From: Mycolicibacterium aromaticivorans JS19b1 = JCM 16368
Lineage (GTDB): Bacteria > Actinomycetota > Actinomycetes > Mycobacteriales > Mycobacteriaceae
Direction: 5' to 3'
Length of the DNA: 64,000 bases
Assembly: GCF_000559085.1 (NCBI RefSeq)
Contig: NZ_JALN02000001.1
Location: 682,001 to 746,000 of the forward strand
Below, in pieces: positions 3,105-61,173 of this stretch. The notes under the pieces are model-generated. The model made no database searches and was not told the origin of the DNA. It saw only the letters and a program-made list of their open reading frames with translations. The number at the start of each line of letters is the position of its first letter. Within the stretch, counting starts at the first letter, position 1. A program made the translations under genes and the position numbers.

Positions 3105-3662
3105 CTACACCTCCAGCAATTCGCCTTCCTTGTGCTTGACCAACTCTTCGATCTGGCCGACGTAGGTGGCCGTGGCCTTGTCCAGATCCTTCTCGGCGCG
3201 CCCAACCTCGTCCTCACCGGCTTCGCCGTCCTTGCGGATGCGGTGCAGTTCCTCCATGGCACGGCGGCGCACGTTGCGCACCGACACCTTGGCGTCCTCA
3301 CCCTTGGACTTGGCCTGCTTCACCAGATCGCGGCGGCGTTCCTCGGTCAGCTGCGGGATCGACACCCGGATGATGTTGCCGTCATTGGTGGGGTTCACCC
3401 CGAGATCGGAGTGACGGATCGCGTCTTCGATCGCCCGTAGCTGCGACGCCTCGTAGGGCTTGATGACGACCATCCGCGCCTCGGGCACGTTGACGCTGCA
3501 CAGCTGCGTGATCGGCGTCGGCGACCCGTAGTAGTCGACGACGACGCGCGAGAACATACCCGGGTTGGCCCGTCCGGTCCGGATGGACGCCAAGTCGTCG
3601 CGGGCGACCGCCACGGCCTTCTCCATCTTCTCTTCGGCATCGAAGAGAGCCTCTTCGATCAT
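3105..3662 (-). CDS. frr: Ribosome recycling factor
   Basis: A 185-aa protein that dissociates post-termination ribosomes together with EF-G. It has the full family length, with the conserved [20 protein letters not shown] region, the [12 protein letters not shown] turn, and the C-terminal helix containing [10 protein letters not shown]. The start ATG at 3662 overlaps the stop of the last micro-ORF of the tandem 50-bp repeat as ATGA. An AGGAGG ribosome site within the repeat lies just upstream. This arrangement couples frr translation to pyrH through the repeat (see the repeat entry). Confidence 0.97.
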
Positions 3663-3812
3663 GCGCCGCTCCTCCTCATCGCTTCGCTCTGCATCGTCGC
3701 CGGCGGGATCATGCGCCGCTCCTCCTCATCGCTTCGCTCTGCATCGTCGCCGGCGGGATCATGCGCCGCTCCTCCTCATCGCTTCGCTCTGCATCGTCGC
3801 CGGCGGGATCAT
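3659..3812 (-). other. Chain of three 17-codon micro-ORFs linking pyrH to frr
   Basis: Reading the repeat on the minus strand, ATG codons at 3812, 3762 and 3712 each open an identical 17-residue frame ([17 protein letters not shown]). Each TGA stop overlaps the next ATG as ATGA, and the last stop overlaps the frr start. The first micro-ORF has its own GGAGG immediately after the pyrH stop. The frames are plainly visible. Whether the peptides are made, or serve only as a translational relay, is inference. Confidence 0.5.
3661..3810 (-). repeat. Three tandem 50-bp MIRU-like units between pyrH and frr
   Basis: Three perfect direct copies of a 50-bp unit occupy 3661-3710, 3711-3760 and 3761-3810. 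They fill the pyrH-frr intercistronic space apart from about 15 bp. On the minus strand each unit starts with ATGATCCCG and ends with a Shine-Dalgarno-like GAGGAGGAG just before the next ATG. The layout is that described for mycobacterial interspersed repetitive units: short, intercistronic, co-oriented with the operon, with ATGA overlaps. Identity to a named MIRU family was not checked. Confidence 0.9.
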
Positions 3813-3825
3813 GTAGTGGTCCTCC

Positions 3826-13920: not shown

Positions 13921-14082
13921 GCCCAAGTTTGATGTCGGGCCCAAGTTTGGTGTCGGGCCCAAGTTTGGTGTCGGGCCCAAGTTTGGTGTCGGGCCCAAGT
14001 TTGGTGTCGGGCCCAAGTTTGGTGTCGGGCCCAAGTTTGGTGTCGGGCCCAAGTTTGGTGTCGGGCCCAAGTTTGGTGTCGG
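13921..14082. repeat. Nine tandem copies of an 18-bp repeat downstream of tsf
   Basis: The unit GCCCAAGTTTGGTGTCGG is repeated nine times head to tail. Eight copies are identical and the copy farthest from tsf has a single change. The array begins one base beyond the tsf stop and ends about 20 bp before the terminator stem, so it forms the 3' untranslated region of the rpsB-tsf message. Because 18 is a multiple of three it stays open in several frames on both strands, but it shows no start context and is not a convincing gene. It looks like a variable-number tandem repeat locus. Confidence 0.97.
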
Positions 14083-14083
14083 G

Positions 14084-14899
14084 CTAGGCCTGACCGACCT
14101 CGAACCGGACGAACCGGGTCACGGTCACGCCGGCCTCGTCGAGCAGCGCCTTGACGGTCTTCTTGCTGTCGGACACCGACGGCTGGTCGAGCAGCACGAC
14201 GTCCTTGTAGAAGCCGGTGACCCTGCCCTCGATGATCTTGGGCAGTGCCTGCTCGGGCTTACCTTCGGCCTTGGCGGTCTCCTCCGCGATGTGGCGCTCG
14301 TTGGCCACGATGTCGGCGGGGACGTCGTCACGGGTCAGGTACTTGGCCTTCAGCGCAGCGATCTGCAGCGCCACCGAGTGCGCCGCCTCTGTGTCATCGC
14401 CGGTGTACTCGACCAGCACACCCACCGCGGGCGGCAGGTCGGCGGCACGCTTGTGCAGGTAGGCCTCGACGTTGCCGTCAAAGTACGCCGCACGGCGCAG
14501 TTCGAGCTTCTCGCCGATCTTGGCAGAGAGTTCCGCGACGGCTTCCTCGACGGTCCTGTCACCGATTTTGGCGGCCTTGAGGGCCTCCACATCGGCGGCC
14601 TTGGACTCGGCCGCGGCAGCGACCACGTCGTTGGCCAATTTCTGGAACTCGGCGTTTTTGGCGACGAAGTCGGTCTCGGAGTTGAGCTCGATCATCGCCC
14701 CGCCCTTGGCGGCGACCAGGCCTTCGGCGGTGGCGCGCTCAGCGCGCTTGCCGACGTCCTTGGCACCCTTGATGCGTAGCGCCTCGACAGCCTTGTCGAA
14801 GTCGCCGTCGCTCTCCGCCAGGGCGTTCTTGCAGTCGAGCATGCCCGCACCGGTGAGCTCCCGAAGCCGCTTGACGTCGGCAGCGGTGTAGTTAGCCAT
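14084..14899 (-). CDS. tsf: Translation elongation factor Ts
   Basis: A 271-aa nucleotide-exchange factor for EF-Tu. The N-terminal UBA-like domain ([19 protein letters not shown]) is followed by the TDFVAKN motif at about residues 78-84, which contacts EF-Tu, and by the core and dimerisation domains, with a typical C-terminus. It is 18 bp after rpsB and surely co-transcribed with it. The 3' end runs straight into the 9 x 18-bp repeat and then the terminator. Confidence 0.98.
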
Positions 14900-29227: not shown

Positions 29228-29482
29228 ACAGGGGACATCGGACTGTGCAGCCGACGTCGCTGCCGGATGTGGAGACTGCACCGACATCTGCTGGGCTGAT
29301 GACAATCTCGGCTACCATATCCATACCCTGCTCGCACCGCGCGTGAAACACGTTCTCTTGCAAGCGGGCGACGACTGCTCAGCTGAGGGCTCAACCCCCA
29401 ACCGAACTCGTGTAGCAGCCTGAGCAGGTTCAGAAGAAGCAGAGTTGGGCTCGCGGAGCGGGCGAATTGTCGACTCAGCGAC
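29228..29482. other. Intergenic region without a recognised gene
   Basis: This 255-bp space lies between the convergent oxidoreductase and metalloprotease genes. No conserved protein, RNA or strong terminator was recognised. A small CTCAGCTGAG palindrome occurs near 29379 but has no T-tract. Confidence 0.5.
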
Positions 29483-57322: not shown

Positions 57323-57426
57323 GACCCGGGAATGGGATCCGGCGGGCAGGAGCGCAGCGACCCGGGAATGGGATCCGGCGGGCAGGAGCGCAGCGACCCG
57401 GGCATGGGATCCGGCGGGCAGGAGCG
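57323..57426 (+). repeat. Three tandem 36-bp repeats upstream of fni
   Basis: A 36-bp unit starting GACCCGGGAATGGGATCC is repeated at 57323, 57359 and 57395, the last copy ending after 32 bp. Each unit holds an ATG and AGGAG. The units are in frame ([12 protein letters not shown]) with the downstream IPP isomerase gene, so they could be translated as an N-terminal extension. More likely they form an upstream leader repeat, of the same style as the 50-bp repeat before frr. Confidence 0.9.
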
Positions 57427-57439
57427 TGAACTGGGTGCC

Positions 57440-58444
57440 ATGGCGAGCCGCAAGCTCCGCCATATCGACGCATGCCTTCACGGGCCGGTGCAATACGAGA
57501 CGGTGACCACCGGCTTCGAGCGCTATCGCCTTCCCTACAACGCCCTGACCCAGACCAACCTCAGCACCGTCGACCTCAGCACCGGCTTCCTCGGCGCGCC
57601 GCTTCGCGCCCCGGTCCTGATCGGGGCCATGACAGGCGGGGCCGAGCTGTCCCGCACCATCAACCGCAATCTCGCCGAGGCCGCGCAGAAGCTCGGGATC
57701 GGCATGATGCTCGGTTCGCAACGCATCATGCTCGACGATGAGGTGGCGGCCGCCAGCTTCGACGTTCGTGACCTCGCACCCGACGTCCTGCTGGTCGGCA
57801 ACATCGGCCTGGCTCAACTCTCGGAATCCGCGATCCCCAAGATCGCCGCGGCAATGGACCGGATCGGCGCTGACGCGCTGGCCGTGCACACCAATCCGCT
57901 CCAGGAGGCGATGCAGGCCAACGGCGACACCGACTTCAGCGGGTCGCTGGACCGGTTGCGCAGGCTGGCCGGGGCGCTGCCCTACCCGATCCTGGTCAAG
58001 GAGGTCGGCCACGGTATCGGCGCCGCGGCCGCCGAGCGGCTGCGGGACCTGCCGATCGCCGCGGTCGACGTCGCGGGCGCCGGTGGTACGTCGTGGGCCC
58101 GGGTCGAACAGCTGGTGCGCTACGGCGAGGTGCGCTACCCGGCCGTCGCCGAATGGGGGGTGCCGACCGCACAGGCACTCACCGAAGTTCGGGCTACCTT
58201 GCCGGGCATGCCGCTGGTGGCCTCCGGGGGAATCCGCACCGGGGTCGATGCCGCCACGGCGCTGGCGCTGGGTGCCGATGTGGTGGCCCTGGCCCGTCCG
58301 CTGCTGGCCCCGGCGATCGAGTCCCCGGCCGCCGCGTTGGACGCGCTGCACGGCTTCATCGAAGAGCTGCGTGTCTGCCTGCACGGCTGCGGTGCGGATG
58401 ACCTGCCCGCGCTGAAACGCCTGGACCTCACGCGCCTCGGCTGA
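57440..58444 (+). CDS. fni: Type 2 isopentenyl-diphosphate delta-isomerase (FMN-dependent)
   Basis: A 334-aa Fni enzyme, interconverting IPP and DMAPP with FMN and NADPH. The N-terminal [10 protein letters not shown] is the usual RK..H motif. The FMN and substrate regions are in [63 protein letters not shown] and ASGGIRTG. The ATG at 57440 gives a normal N-terminus; in-frame starts within the 36-bp repeats would add about 40 repeat residues. Its 3' end overlaps the convergent STAS gene by 17 bp. It may feed carotenoid or other isoprenoid synthesis. Confidence 0.93.
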
Positions 58445-58784
58445 ATCGGTCGACCGCGATCTGCAAGGACGCGACGACGTCGAAGACCTCCGTCAGTCCG
58501 ATCAGCTTCAGCGGCCTGCTGGTGCCAGGCCCGTCGGCAACCACCGCGAATCCGATGTCCGGGGATGCCGCCTCGTAGGCGTCGACAAGCACCTGCATCC
58601 CGGCCGAGCCGAGGAAGGCCACATCGGTCAGGTCCACGATCAGGGCATCCGGGCGCTGCTCGAGTGTGCTGGTGACGAGTTGCTCGAGACGCGGCGCCGT
58701 CAGCAGATCGAGTGCCCCGGAAGCACTGACGACGGCGGTTCTTCCCAGCCAGTACTGGCGGGAATCGTAAACGTCCAAAGCCAC
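58428..58784 (-). CDS. STAS-domain anti-sigma factor antagonist
   Basis: A 118-aa single STAS domain protein of the SpoIIAA/RsbV type. The phosphorylation site is Ser60 in [13 protein letters not shown], preceded by the IVDLTDV strand. It would bind and block an anti-sigma kinase in the dephosphorylated state. The GTG start is divergent from the SpoIIE-type phosphatase gene, its likely activator, across about 146 bp. No kinase (RsbW-like) gene is visible in the window, so the partner must be encoded elsewhere. Its 3' end overlaps fni. Confidence 0.88.
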
Positions 58785-58930
58785 CCTTCGACGATCGGTG
58801 CCCGGCCGGCGGGCGACAACTATCGGAAGGCTGCTGCTTGAACCTCGGCGAACAGATTAGCTCACGCCGCCGGCTCGCTCTAACGGCCAGGCCTGGCCCT
58901 GCGACGACGATCCCCGCTAGCGTGGAGGCA

Positions 58931-60181
58931 ATGGCAAACCAGTTCGCGCCCGATGTCGCGCACCGCGACGTCGAGACCGCGATGAACGGCTCGCTGAATC
59001 TTCGGCGCACTGTCCTGAACCTGCTGAGTGCGGTCCAGCCGCGCCTGGCGGACTGGGCGGTACTGGCCATGCCGGATCACCGGACGGGTGGACTGACCGT
59101 CTACGGCGGGGCCAATGTCGGATTCTCCGATGTCATCGCCCGGTCGTCGCCGTCCGAGCGCGGCCTGGATCAGGTGCTGCGCACCGGCCAGCGACTTCAT
59201 GGCCACGTCGGTCAGGACATGTCCCTCGCCGAGATCGGCACCCGCCTGCGGCATCGGGCCCTGGCCGAGGAACTCGCCGCATTGCGCCCAGCTGACGTGC
59301 TGACCCTGCCGCTGACCGCCCGGGGCACGACGTTGGGCGTGTTCGTTCTGGCTCGTACGGCGGGGCGGCTGTTCGACGAGGACACCATCGAGGAGGCCGA
59401 GCGGGTGGGCGCGACCGCGGCTGTGGCGCTGGATTCGGCTCGGCTCTACGAGGAGCGCGGACAACTGGCCGCGGCGTTGCAGCGCAGCCTCCGGCCGCCG
59501 AAACTTCCTCAGGCCACTGGATTTTCGGTCGCGGCGCGGTATCGGCCTGCTGTGGAGCATCTCGAGATCGGCGGTGATTTCTACGATGTCGTCGGTAGCG
59601 GCGACGACGTGGTGCTCACGTTGGGCGATGTGTGCGGAAAAGGGGTCGATTCCGCCGCGCTCACGCTGCAGGCCCGCCAAACCATCCGCACCTCCGCGCA
59701 TTTCGACCGCAGCCCCGATCGGGTTCTCGACACGCTGAACACGGTGCTGTGCGAACAGGCGGTCGGACGGTTCGTGACCACGCTGTGCGCGCGGGTGCGT
59801 GGCAGGCCTGACGGTGATTGGGCAGAAGCGCACGTCGCCGCGGCCGGACACCCCGGCCCGATCGTGGTTCGGGCCACCGGCGATATCGAACAGATCGAGG
59901 TCTCCGGGATCGCCGCCGGAGTGAAGCTCGGAGTGAACTATCGCACTGCCGCAGTGCGATTGGAGCGCGGCGACACCATGCTGATGTTCACTGACGGCGT
60001 CGAGGAGGCCCGCCGCGACGAGCGTCTGTATGGCGTGCATCGGTTGCTGGAATTGCTGCCCGCCTACGCCGGCGCCGGCGGAGAGGTGATCTGCGAGGCG
60101 GTCGAACGCGACGTCCTGGAGTATTTGGACGGTGATCCGCACGACGACATGGCATTGCTGGCGGTCACGTGCGGGAGCTGA
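58931..60181 (+). CDS. GAF domain-containing PP2C/SpoIIE-type serine phosphatase
   Basis: A 416-aa phosphatase. An N-terminal GAF sensor domain (about residues 20-170) is followed by a SpoIIE/RsbU-type catalytic domain (about 180-415). Metal-binding acidic residues are in IGGDFYDVV, LGDVCGKGVDS, MFTDGVEEARRDE and DPHDDMALL, so it should be active. Such enzymes dephosphorylate STAS antagonists. The ATG at 58931 follows GGAGG closely, and a leaderless start is possible. Its last 13 bp overlap the start of the B12-binding gene, so the two are coupled. Confidence 0.9.
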   Translation: MANQFAPDVAHRDVETAMNGSLNLRRTVLNLLSAVQPRLADWAVLAMPDHRTGGLTVYGGANVGFSDVIARSSPSERGLDQVLRTGQRLHGHVGQDMSLAEIGTRLRHRALAEELAALRPADVLTLPLTARGTTLGVFVLARTAGRLFDEDTIEEAERVGATAAVALDSARLYEERGQLAAALQRSLRPPKLPQATGFSVAARYRPAVEHLEIGGDFYDVVGSGDDVVLTLGDVCGKGVDSAALTLQARQTIRTSAHFDRSPDRVLDTLNTVLCEQAVGRFVTTLCARVRGRPDGDWAEAHVAAAGHPGPIVVRATGDIEQIEVSGIAAGVKLGVNYRTAAVRLERGDTMLMFTDGVEEARRDERLYGVHRLLELLPAYAGAGGEVICEAVERDVLEYLDGDPHDDMALLAVTCGS

Positions 60182-61173
60182 CACCGCTGGCCGACTACCA
60201 GTATGCGTTGGGGAGCAGGGACCGGGCGCAGGCCACCGGCGTTGTCACTCAATTGCTGACTGACGGTGTGGATCCCGTGACGGTGCTGACCGACGTGATA
60301 GCCACGTCGCAGCGCGAGGTCGGAATGCGCTGGCAGCGTGCCGAATGGACCGTCGCCGACGAGCACGCCGCCACCGCGATCTCGGTCGCCGCGACCGGCG
60401 CCGTCGCCGAGTATGTGACCGCAATTCCCTTGCGGGGCAAGTCGGTTCTGGTCGCGTGTGCCGAGCGGGAGTTTCACGAACTGCCCGCCATGATCATCGG
60501 GTGCGCGTTGCGCGCGCACGGCTGGGAGACCACTGTGTTGGGCGCGGCGACCTCGCCGATGCGCCTGAGCCAGCATCTCGTCGACCACGGGCACGACGCG
60601 GTGGCCATCAGCTGCTCGGTGTTGGGCGCCTTGCCGACCACCCGCCGCTTCATCGAGGCGGCCACCGCGGCGGGGGTGCCGACGTTGGTCGGGGGCCCGG
60701 CATTCGGTTACGACGACGTGCGGGCGCGCGCACTTGGCGCCACCGCGTGGGCATCCAACGCACACGACGCCGTCGCGGCGATGGAAGCGCTGCCCACGGT
60801 TTCCGTAGTGCTACCGGAGATTTCACCGGCGGCGAGCGCCGAACAGGCGCAGCTGGATCTCCACCACCGCCGGATCGTCGAGTTCCTGCGCGAACGGTGG
60901 TCGCTGACCCGTGAATCGCCGCCGAACACCGTCTTCGCCAACCTGACCCGCGACACGCTGAACCAAGCGCTGCATGCACTGTCGGCGGCACTGCTAACCG
61001 GTGACCCGCGGCCGATCGCCGAGACCGCGTGGTGGATCAAGGACGTCCTTCAGGCGCGCCATGCCGACCCCGCGTCAGTGGCCGAGCTGGCCGACCTGCT
61101 CTCCGACAGCCTCGACGACTACCCACTGGCGCGCGAGCTCGTGCGCGCGCACTTTACGATCGAATCCAGATGA
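60169..61173 (+). CDS. Cobalamin-binding sensor protein with CarH-type W-x9-EH motif
   Basis: A 334-aa protein. The N-terminal four-helix cap and B12-binding Rossmann domain (about 30-205) are recognisable. In the cap, W55-x9-E65-H66 (WQRAEWTVADEH) is the signature of adenosylcobalamin photoreceptors of the CarH/LitR type. In the Rossmann part, E101-F-H103 stands for the E/DxHxxG axial-His motif (the Gly is Pro106). The loops SCSVLGALP and GGPAFGYDD fit the cobalamin tail site. There is no MerR DNA-binding domain. The C-terminal ~130 residues are helical and unassigned. The gene overlaps the upstream phosphatase gene. The cofactor and light response are inferred. Confidence 0.8.
   Translation: MRELTPLADYQYALGSRDRAQATGVVTQLLTDGVDPVTVLTDVIATSQREVGMRWQRAEWTVADEHAATAISVAATGAVAEYVTAIPLRGKSVLVACAEREFHELPAMIIGCALRAHGWETTVLGAATSPMRLSQHLVDHGHDAVAISCSVLGALPTTRRFIEAATAAGVPTLVGGPAFGYDDVRARALGATAWASNAHDAVAAMEALPTVSVVLPEISPAASAEQAQLDLHHRRIVEFLRERWSLTRESPPNTVFANLTRDTLNQALHALSAALLTGDPRPIAETAWWIKDVLQARHADPASVAELADLLSDSLDDYPLARELVRAHFTIESR

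Follow-up and report, generated by a model that had tools for sequence, protein, structure and literature searches.

A photocobilin-like protein paired with a SpoIIE-type phosphatase between ftsY and smc in Mycolicibacterium aromaticivorans: a candidate B12 input to partner switching

Four genes lie between ftsY and smc in Mycolicibacterium aromaticivorans JS19b1 = JCM 16368, one encoding a cobalamin (B12)-binding protein and another a SpoIIE-type phosphatase. Do these two proteins form one signalling device, and does it respond to light? We addressed this question in a stretch of 64,000 nt (assembly GCF_000559085.1, contig NZ_JALN02000001.1, positions 682,001-746,000 of the forward strand), the whole of which is termed the window. 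A preliminary description, made from sequence alone, had read the four genes as a B12- and light-gated partner-switching module. On balance, the locus as a whole is probably best explained by a photocobilin-like protein that acts as the input to a phosphatase of partner switching and controls it. All four open reading frames (ORFs) lie where they had been placed, with their domains recovered by Pfam and TIGR models, and the reported overlap of the B12 and phosphatase genes was read in the sequence as 13 nt:

57440-58444, plus strand: type 2 isopentenyl-diphosphate isomerase gene idi (TIGR02151, 345 bits against a cut-off of 281.3); ORF open from 57299.
58428-58784, minus strand: STAS-domain protein of the anti-sigma antagonist type, 118 aa (PF01740, PF13466; TIGR00377 barely above cut-off).
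58785-58930, no strand: divergent intergenic region between the STAS and phosphatase genes (9-sequence alignment).
58931-60181, plus strand: GAF-SpoIIE (PP2C-type) phosphatase, 416 aa (PF07228, 4.7e-40; PF13185 GAF_2, 1.6e-8); ORF open from 58838, with ATG 58931 as the likely start.
60169-60181, plus strand: 13-nt overlap of the phosphatase and B12 genes.
60169-61173, plus strand: photocobilin-like protein, 334 aa, with a CarH-type B12-binding domain (PF02607 + PF02310) and a predicted C-terminal photoglobin domain (homology to SasPcob).

Residues 12-323 of the window B12 protein matched the standalone photocobilin SasPcob (PDB 8j2w) with E 2.2e-46 and AbDPcob (PDB 8j2y) with 4.8e-35; the match to CarH was far weaker (1.2e-5). 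The last 120 aa alone matched SasPcob (1.3e-4), and a 19-sequence profile of the protein matched it over almost the whole chain (1.1e-106). By sequence homology, the protein therefore has a bilin-type globin (photoglobin) domain. Only the two B12 domains scored above the Pfam cut-off, no MerR-type DNA-binding domain being found, and the NCBIfam CarH model gave 42.4 bits against a cut-off of 400. Judged by these comparisons, the protein is a full-length photocobilin homologue and not a bare CarH-like domain. It shares with CarH a B12 domain with W-x9-EH (W55, E65-H66) and an axial His, but differs in its lack of a MerR-type domain and its extra globin domain. The preliminary description had thus recognised the CarH-type domain and the absence of a DNA-binding domain, and had overlooked the photoglobin domain. 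The likeness to SasPcob of Saccharothrix syringae (PDB 8j2w/8j2x; PMC10979010) comprises whole-length homology, the order of B12 and photoglobin domains, the W, the EH and the axial His. Binding of adenosylcobalamin (AdoCbl) by the window protein is likely, and its use of biliverdin doubtful.

Passages of PMC10979010 on these proteins state that photocobilins bind AdoCbl and biliverdin, and that light strips the adenosyl group. In vitro, isolated photocobilin parts worked in trans and altered how active a separate enzyme was; for SasPcob the sign of this effect was set by whether biliverdin was bound. The same passages name STAS and SpoIIE proteins as potential interaction partners of SasPcob, in networks obtained from STRING. 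Because these partners had been named there, the earlier statement that no system of such composition had been described is incorrect. The module is new in its mycobacterial setting and as a sub-lineage; its kind was already indicated in print. Our literature search found no paper characterising such a B12 photoreceptor in mycobacteria, and a term search in a study of transcription induced by light in M. kansasii found no mention of photoreceptor, cobalamin, B12, SpoIIE, STAS or SigF.

We scanned 198 Mycobacterium genomes and obtained matches to the B12 protein in 71 at E 0.001. These sorted into a close form (group A; 32 genomes, 52-92% identical where whole) and a distant form (group B; 40 genomes, 31-42% identical), with eight genomes carrying both and 64 either; the other seven had weak matches. 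Sixty-one family loci were collected with flanks: 8 group A loci at ftsY-smc, 23 group A loci elsewhere, and 30 group B loci (4 from other genera of the family). Left out were G008 of the 32 group A genomes (split, contig end), 14 of the 40 group B genomes and, in the class-level scan below, 10 of 52 rows from outside the genus; L058, L059 and L061-L063 duplicate L064, L065 and L068-L070 and were counted once. Genes and starts were called by a simple script and neighbours were assigned by clustering. The SpoIIE gene was directly upstream and co-directional in 60 of the 61 loci; at the exception, L123, a GGDEF gene took its place. Of the 31 group A loci, 22 had a 13-nt overlap of the two genes, two a 4-nt overlap and seven a gap of 7-62 nt. 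Group B loci with SpoIIE showed a 4-nt overlap in 22/29 and gaps of 7-62 nt in the other seven. The 13-nt overlap likely represents translational coupling.

At class level, 57 genomes out of 345 had a match at 1e-30, and 40 loci were collected with flanks. SpoIIE was directly upstream in 35; L215 had it two genes upstream, L222 and L229 had GGDEF, L228 started at a contig end, and L226 was unrecognised by the scan. A STAS gene was present in 8/8 related ftsY-smc loci. It occupied the +1 position after the B12 gene in all 26 Mycobacterium group B loci (the genes overlap in 25) and directly followed the photocobilin gene in 17/40 class loci. Complete STAS-kinase-SpoIIE-photocobilin rows were found in the family at L120-L122 (L120 by Pfam) and in the class at L199, L217, L218, L225 and L227. 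The adjacency of SpoIIE in 60/61 and 35/40 loci is not explained by chance, since the window genome has only six PF07228 matches in total. These findings demonstrate that a B12 sensor plus phosphatase, with STAS and sometimes an RsbW-type kinase, is a real, recurrent actinobacterial module. The adjacency and overlaps bear out the proposed coupling of a CarH-type B12 protein to a SpoIIE phosphatase associated with STAS. The suggested co-occurrence of all four genes across Mycobacterium held for the SpoIIE-B12 pair and often for STAS, and failed for idi.

Some loci showed further arrangements. The GGDEF gene upstream of the photocobilin gene in L123, L222 and L229 forms a two-gene version of the AbDPcob fusion. 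In L074, L076, L078, L081 and L082 the photocobilin gene is followed by a gene of ~1370 codons and then by STAS; in L081 the long gene encodes GAF, histidine kinase, receiver, PAS, SpoIIE and RsbW-type HATPase domains. The window genome contains a 1379-codon frame with SpoIIE and HATPase, away from the module. The group B homologue at L042 (G142) matched as two pieces in different frames, which may reflect gene decay or a fault in the assembly.

The catalytic motifs GGDFYD, GDVCGKG, TDG and DDMA are all present in the window phosphatase. Among 60 relatives, TDG and DDxA were each kept in 60, and GGDxxD and GDxxGKG each in 58. The window STAS protein has LGSAGM at the usual phospho-acceptor Ser site, and L[GS]SAGM was found in the STAS of 8/8 related ftsY-smc loci. 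A pattern scan gave no match to the Ser pattern in L084, L085, L097, L109, L112, L113 and L118; six loci have a second STAS (cluster 26), and this gave no match either. A PP2C-type phosphatase and a STAS antagonist with a phospho-acceptor Ser are likewise components of the M. smegmatis SigF system (RsfB, RsbW2, RsfR), as outlined in portions of PMC7693655 and PMC10950880. However, M. smegmatis RsfR is controlled, according to these portions, through its receiver domain together with a histidine kinase, whereas the candidate input in the window is a separate B12 protein.

In the mechanism that we favour, the B12 protein would be produced in step with the GAF-SpoIIE phosphatase, would bind AdoCbl base-off via H103, and would dock onto the phosphatase. 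When its cobalamin changed state, in all likelihood through light-induced loss of the adenosyl group, its quaternary structure would be altered and phosphatase activity in turn raised or lowered. The substrate of the phosphatase would be the phosphoserine on the STAS protein encoded next to it; once dephosphorylated, this STAS protein could engage a kinase of the RsbW type or an anti-sigma factor. That the B12 protein controls the phosphatase is likely. As the signal, light is plausible here, and is the weakest inference for the group A lineage.

In favour of this mechanism are the whole-length homology to SasPcob, the invariance of W55, E65, H66 and H103, the conserved pairing and overlap of the genes, the placement of STAS, the complete cassettes, the action of photocobilins in trans, and the cobalamin adenosyltransferase and RsbW2-like kinase of the window genome. 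SpoIIE and B12-protein distances also correlated (r 0.89 for 31 group A loci and 0.85 for 29 group B loci; none of 2000 permutations reached these values), in a calculation without species-tree control. Several observations weigh against the mechanism. Our literature search found no experiment on such a SpoIIE-photocobilin pair, phosphatase assays included. ORF and Pfam analysis revealed no RsbW-type kinase or anti-sigma factor between ftsY and smc in the window, and 12 of the 23 group A loci outside ftsY-smc had no STAS within four genes by clustering. The heme oxygenase family PF01126 had no match in the window genome; other bilin sources (MhuD-type) were not searched. Across the 198 genomes PF01126 occurred in 65: 3/24 with group A only, 12/32 with group B only, 1/8 with both and 49/134 with neither. 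This distribution does not track photocobilin, so heme oxygenase provides no discriminating test of bilin use; it was dropped as such, and only its absence from the window genome was counted.

The remaining adverse points concern residues. The signature of light-responsive B12 domains (SignatureFinder), as given in part of PMC11796333, is GxxW, EH, GxxH and GxxxP. The window protein has G52-W55, E65-H66 and E101-F-H103 (E/DxH with the axial His H103). It departs from SasPcob in having RxxH for GxxH and GxxxS for GxxxP, so that two of the four signature elements are missing, and in having His269 at the position of the bilin residue Asp270. W55, E65, H66 and H103 were kept in 31/31 group A and 30/30 group B relatives, and GxxW and EH together in 31/31 of group A. 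The G of GxxH was R or K in all 31 group A sequences, the P of GxxxP was S, N, T or A in 29 (kept in 2), and the Asp270 position was His in all 31. Group B kept the G and P in 30/30, and had D in 23 and E in 5 at the Asp270 position. Among 41 class-level sequences, the G was kept in 32, the P in 39 and the D in 28; departures from the signature thus also occur beyond group A, singly or together. The unusual part is the lineage: a distinct sub-lineage that keeps W-x9-EH and the axial His and, in nearly all members, lacks the other two signature elements. Because GxxH and GxxxP are altered, we class the window protein with the photocobilin homologues, coupled here to a phosphatase of partner switching, and stop short of calling it a proven light sensor. 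In L206 and L207, two tandem photocobilin genes lie between SpoIIE and STAS; in one copy the GxxH glycine is replaced by R, and the other does not appear in the list of signature departures.

These residues bear directly on the alternative that the same module is not driven by light, the B12 protein instead reporting cobalamin form, supply or redox state to the phosphatase. We consider this unlikely, though to be taken seriously. The loss in group A of two light-signature elements and the bilin Asp, with the axial His kept, speaks for it, as does a weak match of the 19-sequence profile to AerR, a cobalamin-binding regulator (7te2, 3.4e-5). However, the adenosyl-pocket residues W55 and E65-H66 are invariant in group A, and the nearest solved relatives, SasPcob and AbDPcob, respond to light according to passages of PMC10979010. 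AbDPcob is homologous to the window protein and has, as it does, His at the bilin Asp position; in these passages it is counted as a photocobilin despite this His, with weaker bilin binding. It differs in that it retains GxxH and GxxxP in the alignment and is fused to its own diguanylate cyclase, whereas the partner in the window is a separate phosphatase. One tentative suggestion is that this branch has been re-tuned: the AdoCbl pocket would be kept, while the bilin channel would have been abandoned along with some elements of the light signature. With its invariant His269 the protein would then sense something else, be it the form of cobalamin, redox or another tetrapyrrole, and drive an anti-sigma partner switch via the separate SpoIIE phosphatase.

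A second alternative is that the neighbouring STAS protein is not the substrate. The SpoIIE-B12 pair would then be independent and act on another STAS protein, the local one being incidental or serving a different phosphatase. The group A loci without nearby STAS are in its favour, and so is L145, where the pair is absent although a STAS gene separates idi from smc. Against these stands the placement of STAS in every related ftsY-smc locus, at +1 in every Mycobacterium group B locus, and in 17 class loci. We regard this alternative, too, as improbable, and retain the neighbouring STAS as the candidate substrate of the phosphatase.

The kinase that the favoured mechanism calls for may be encoded elsewhere. 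An RsbW2-like kinase gene of the window genome (G000:C1:402119-402469) adjoins another GAF-SpoIIE gene, and its product shares 53% identity over 125 aa with the L071 kinase, whose gene lies next to STAS; a kinase beside STAS was also found by Pfam in L120. This RsbW2-like protein is the best candidate kinase for the module. The genome also has sigF elsewhere on C1, with an HATPase gene (UsfX-like partner) alongside; the RsbW2-like kinase and sigF are shared with the M. smegmatis system. Both could join the module in one pathway, the link to SigF being that of a candidate. A pattern scan of the window with a SigF-type promoter consensus gave no match near the module and one match at 29324-29349 on the minus strand; at least one match was also obtained in 21/100 shuffles. 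In the divergent region 58785-58930, GGCTGCTG (58829-58836) and GCTAGCGTG (58916-58924) are invariant in the window and the 8 related loci, and GCTAGCGTG could be a promoter -10 element. A cobalamin adenosyltransferase gene is present in the window genome.

The weakest alternative, the preliminary description's full reading of a light module of four genes whose isomerase tunes isoprenoid or carotenoid supply, is highly improbable: idi, STAS and the pair do adjoin in the window and in 7/8 related ftsY-smc loci, and the M. smegmatis SigF regulon includes carotenoid genes according to part of PMC7693655, but idi sits beside ftsY in 37 genomes that lack the module at this position, is absent at the module-bearing L070 and was found by neighbour clustering in no group A2 or B locus, and the two phytoene-synthase-type genes of the window genome are both distant from the module. 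The adjacency was scored from coordinates in the 50 genomes ranked highest by idi match; the gene adjoined ftsY in 44, including those 37, did not in four, and two had no listed ftsY row. Twelve loci lacking the pair were hand-picked by coordinates, nine with idi apparently adjoining ftsY and three not; idi lay between ftsY and smc in nine. In L145 the order is idi-STAS-smc, with neither SpoIIE nor B12 gene. Since idi adjoins ftsY with or without the module at this position, idi was rejected as a functional member; it is evidently the older neighbour, with STAS and the pair having arrived between idi and smc.

In the tree, group A was joined first by L199 (100/100) and next by L225/L227; support for the group A clade was modest (83/47), and L225 and L227 were flagged as long branches. 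In L071-L073 and L077, STAS and a kinase-cluster gene are divergent from the pair (the L071 kinase by Pfam). We read the window locus as derived from a full STAS-kinase-SpoIIE-photocobilin cassette whose linked kinase has since been lost.

The window also contains three tandem repeats. A perfect-looking 36-bp repeat (57323-57426; 2.9 copies, 98% matches) sits in the spacer from ftsY to idi and shares the frame of the idi ORF; an 18-mer from it occurs three times in the window and was absent from the seven related loci checked. An 18-bp repeat (13921-14084; 9.1 copies, 99%) abuts the stop of a gene that we take to be tsf (EF-Ts), and a 50-bp repeat (3657-3813; 3.1 copies, 100%) lies directly upstream of what is presumably frr (ribosome recycling factor).

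If the favoured mechanism is true, B12 chemistry, and probably light, would act directly on the phosphatase side of partner switching, which is one of the major switches of the stress response. Many species would be concerned, given a group A or B homologue in 64 of the 198 Mycobacterium genomes. The two sister lineages, one with and one without the canonical light and bilin residues and both with the same partner gene, constitute a natural experiment on the light-responsiveness of B12 proteins.

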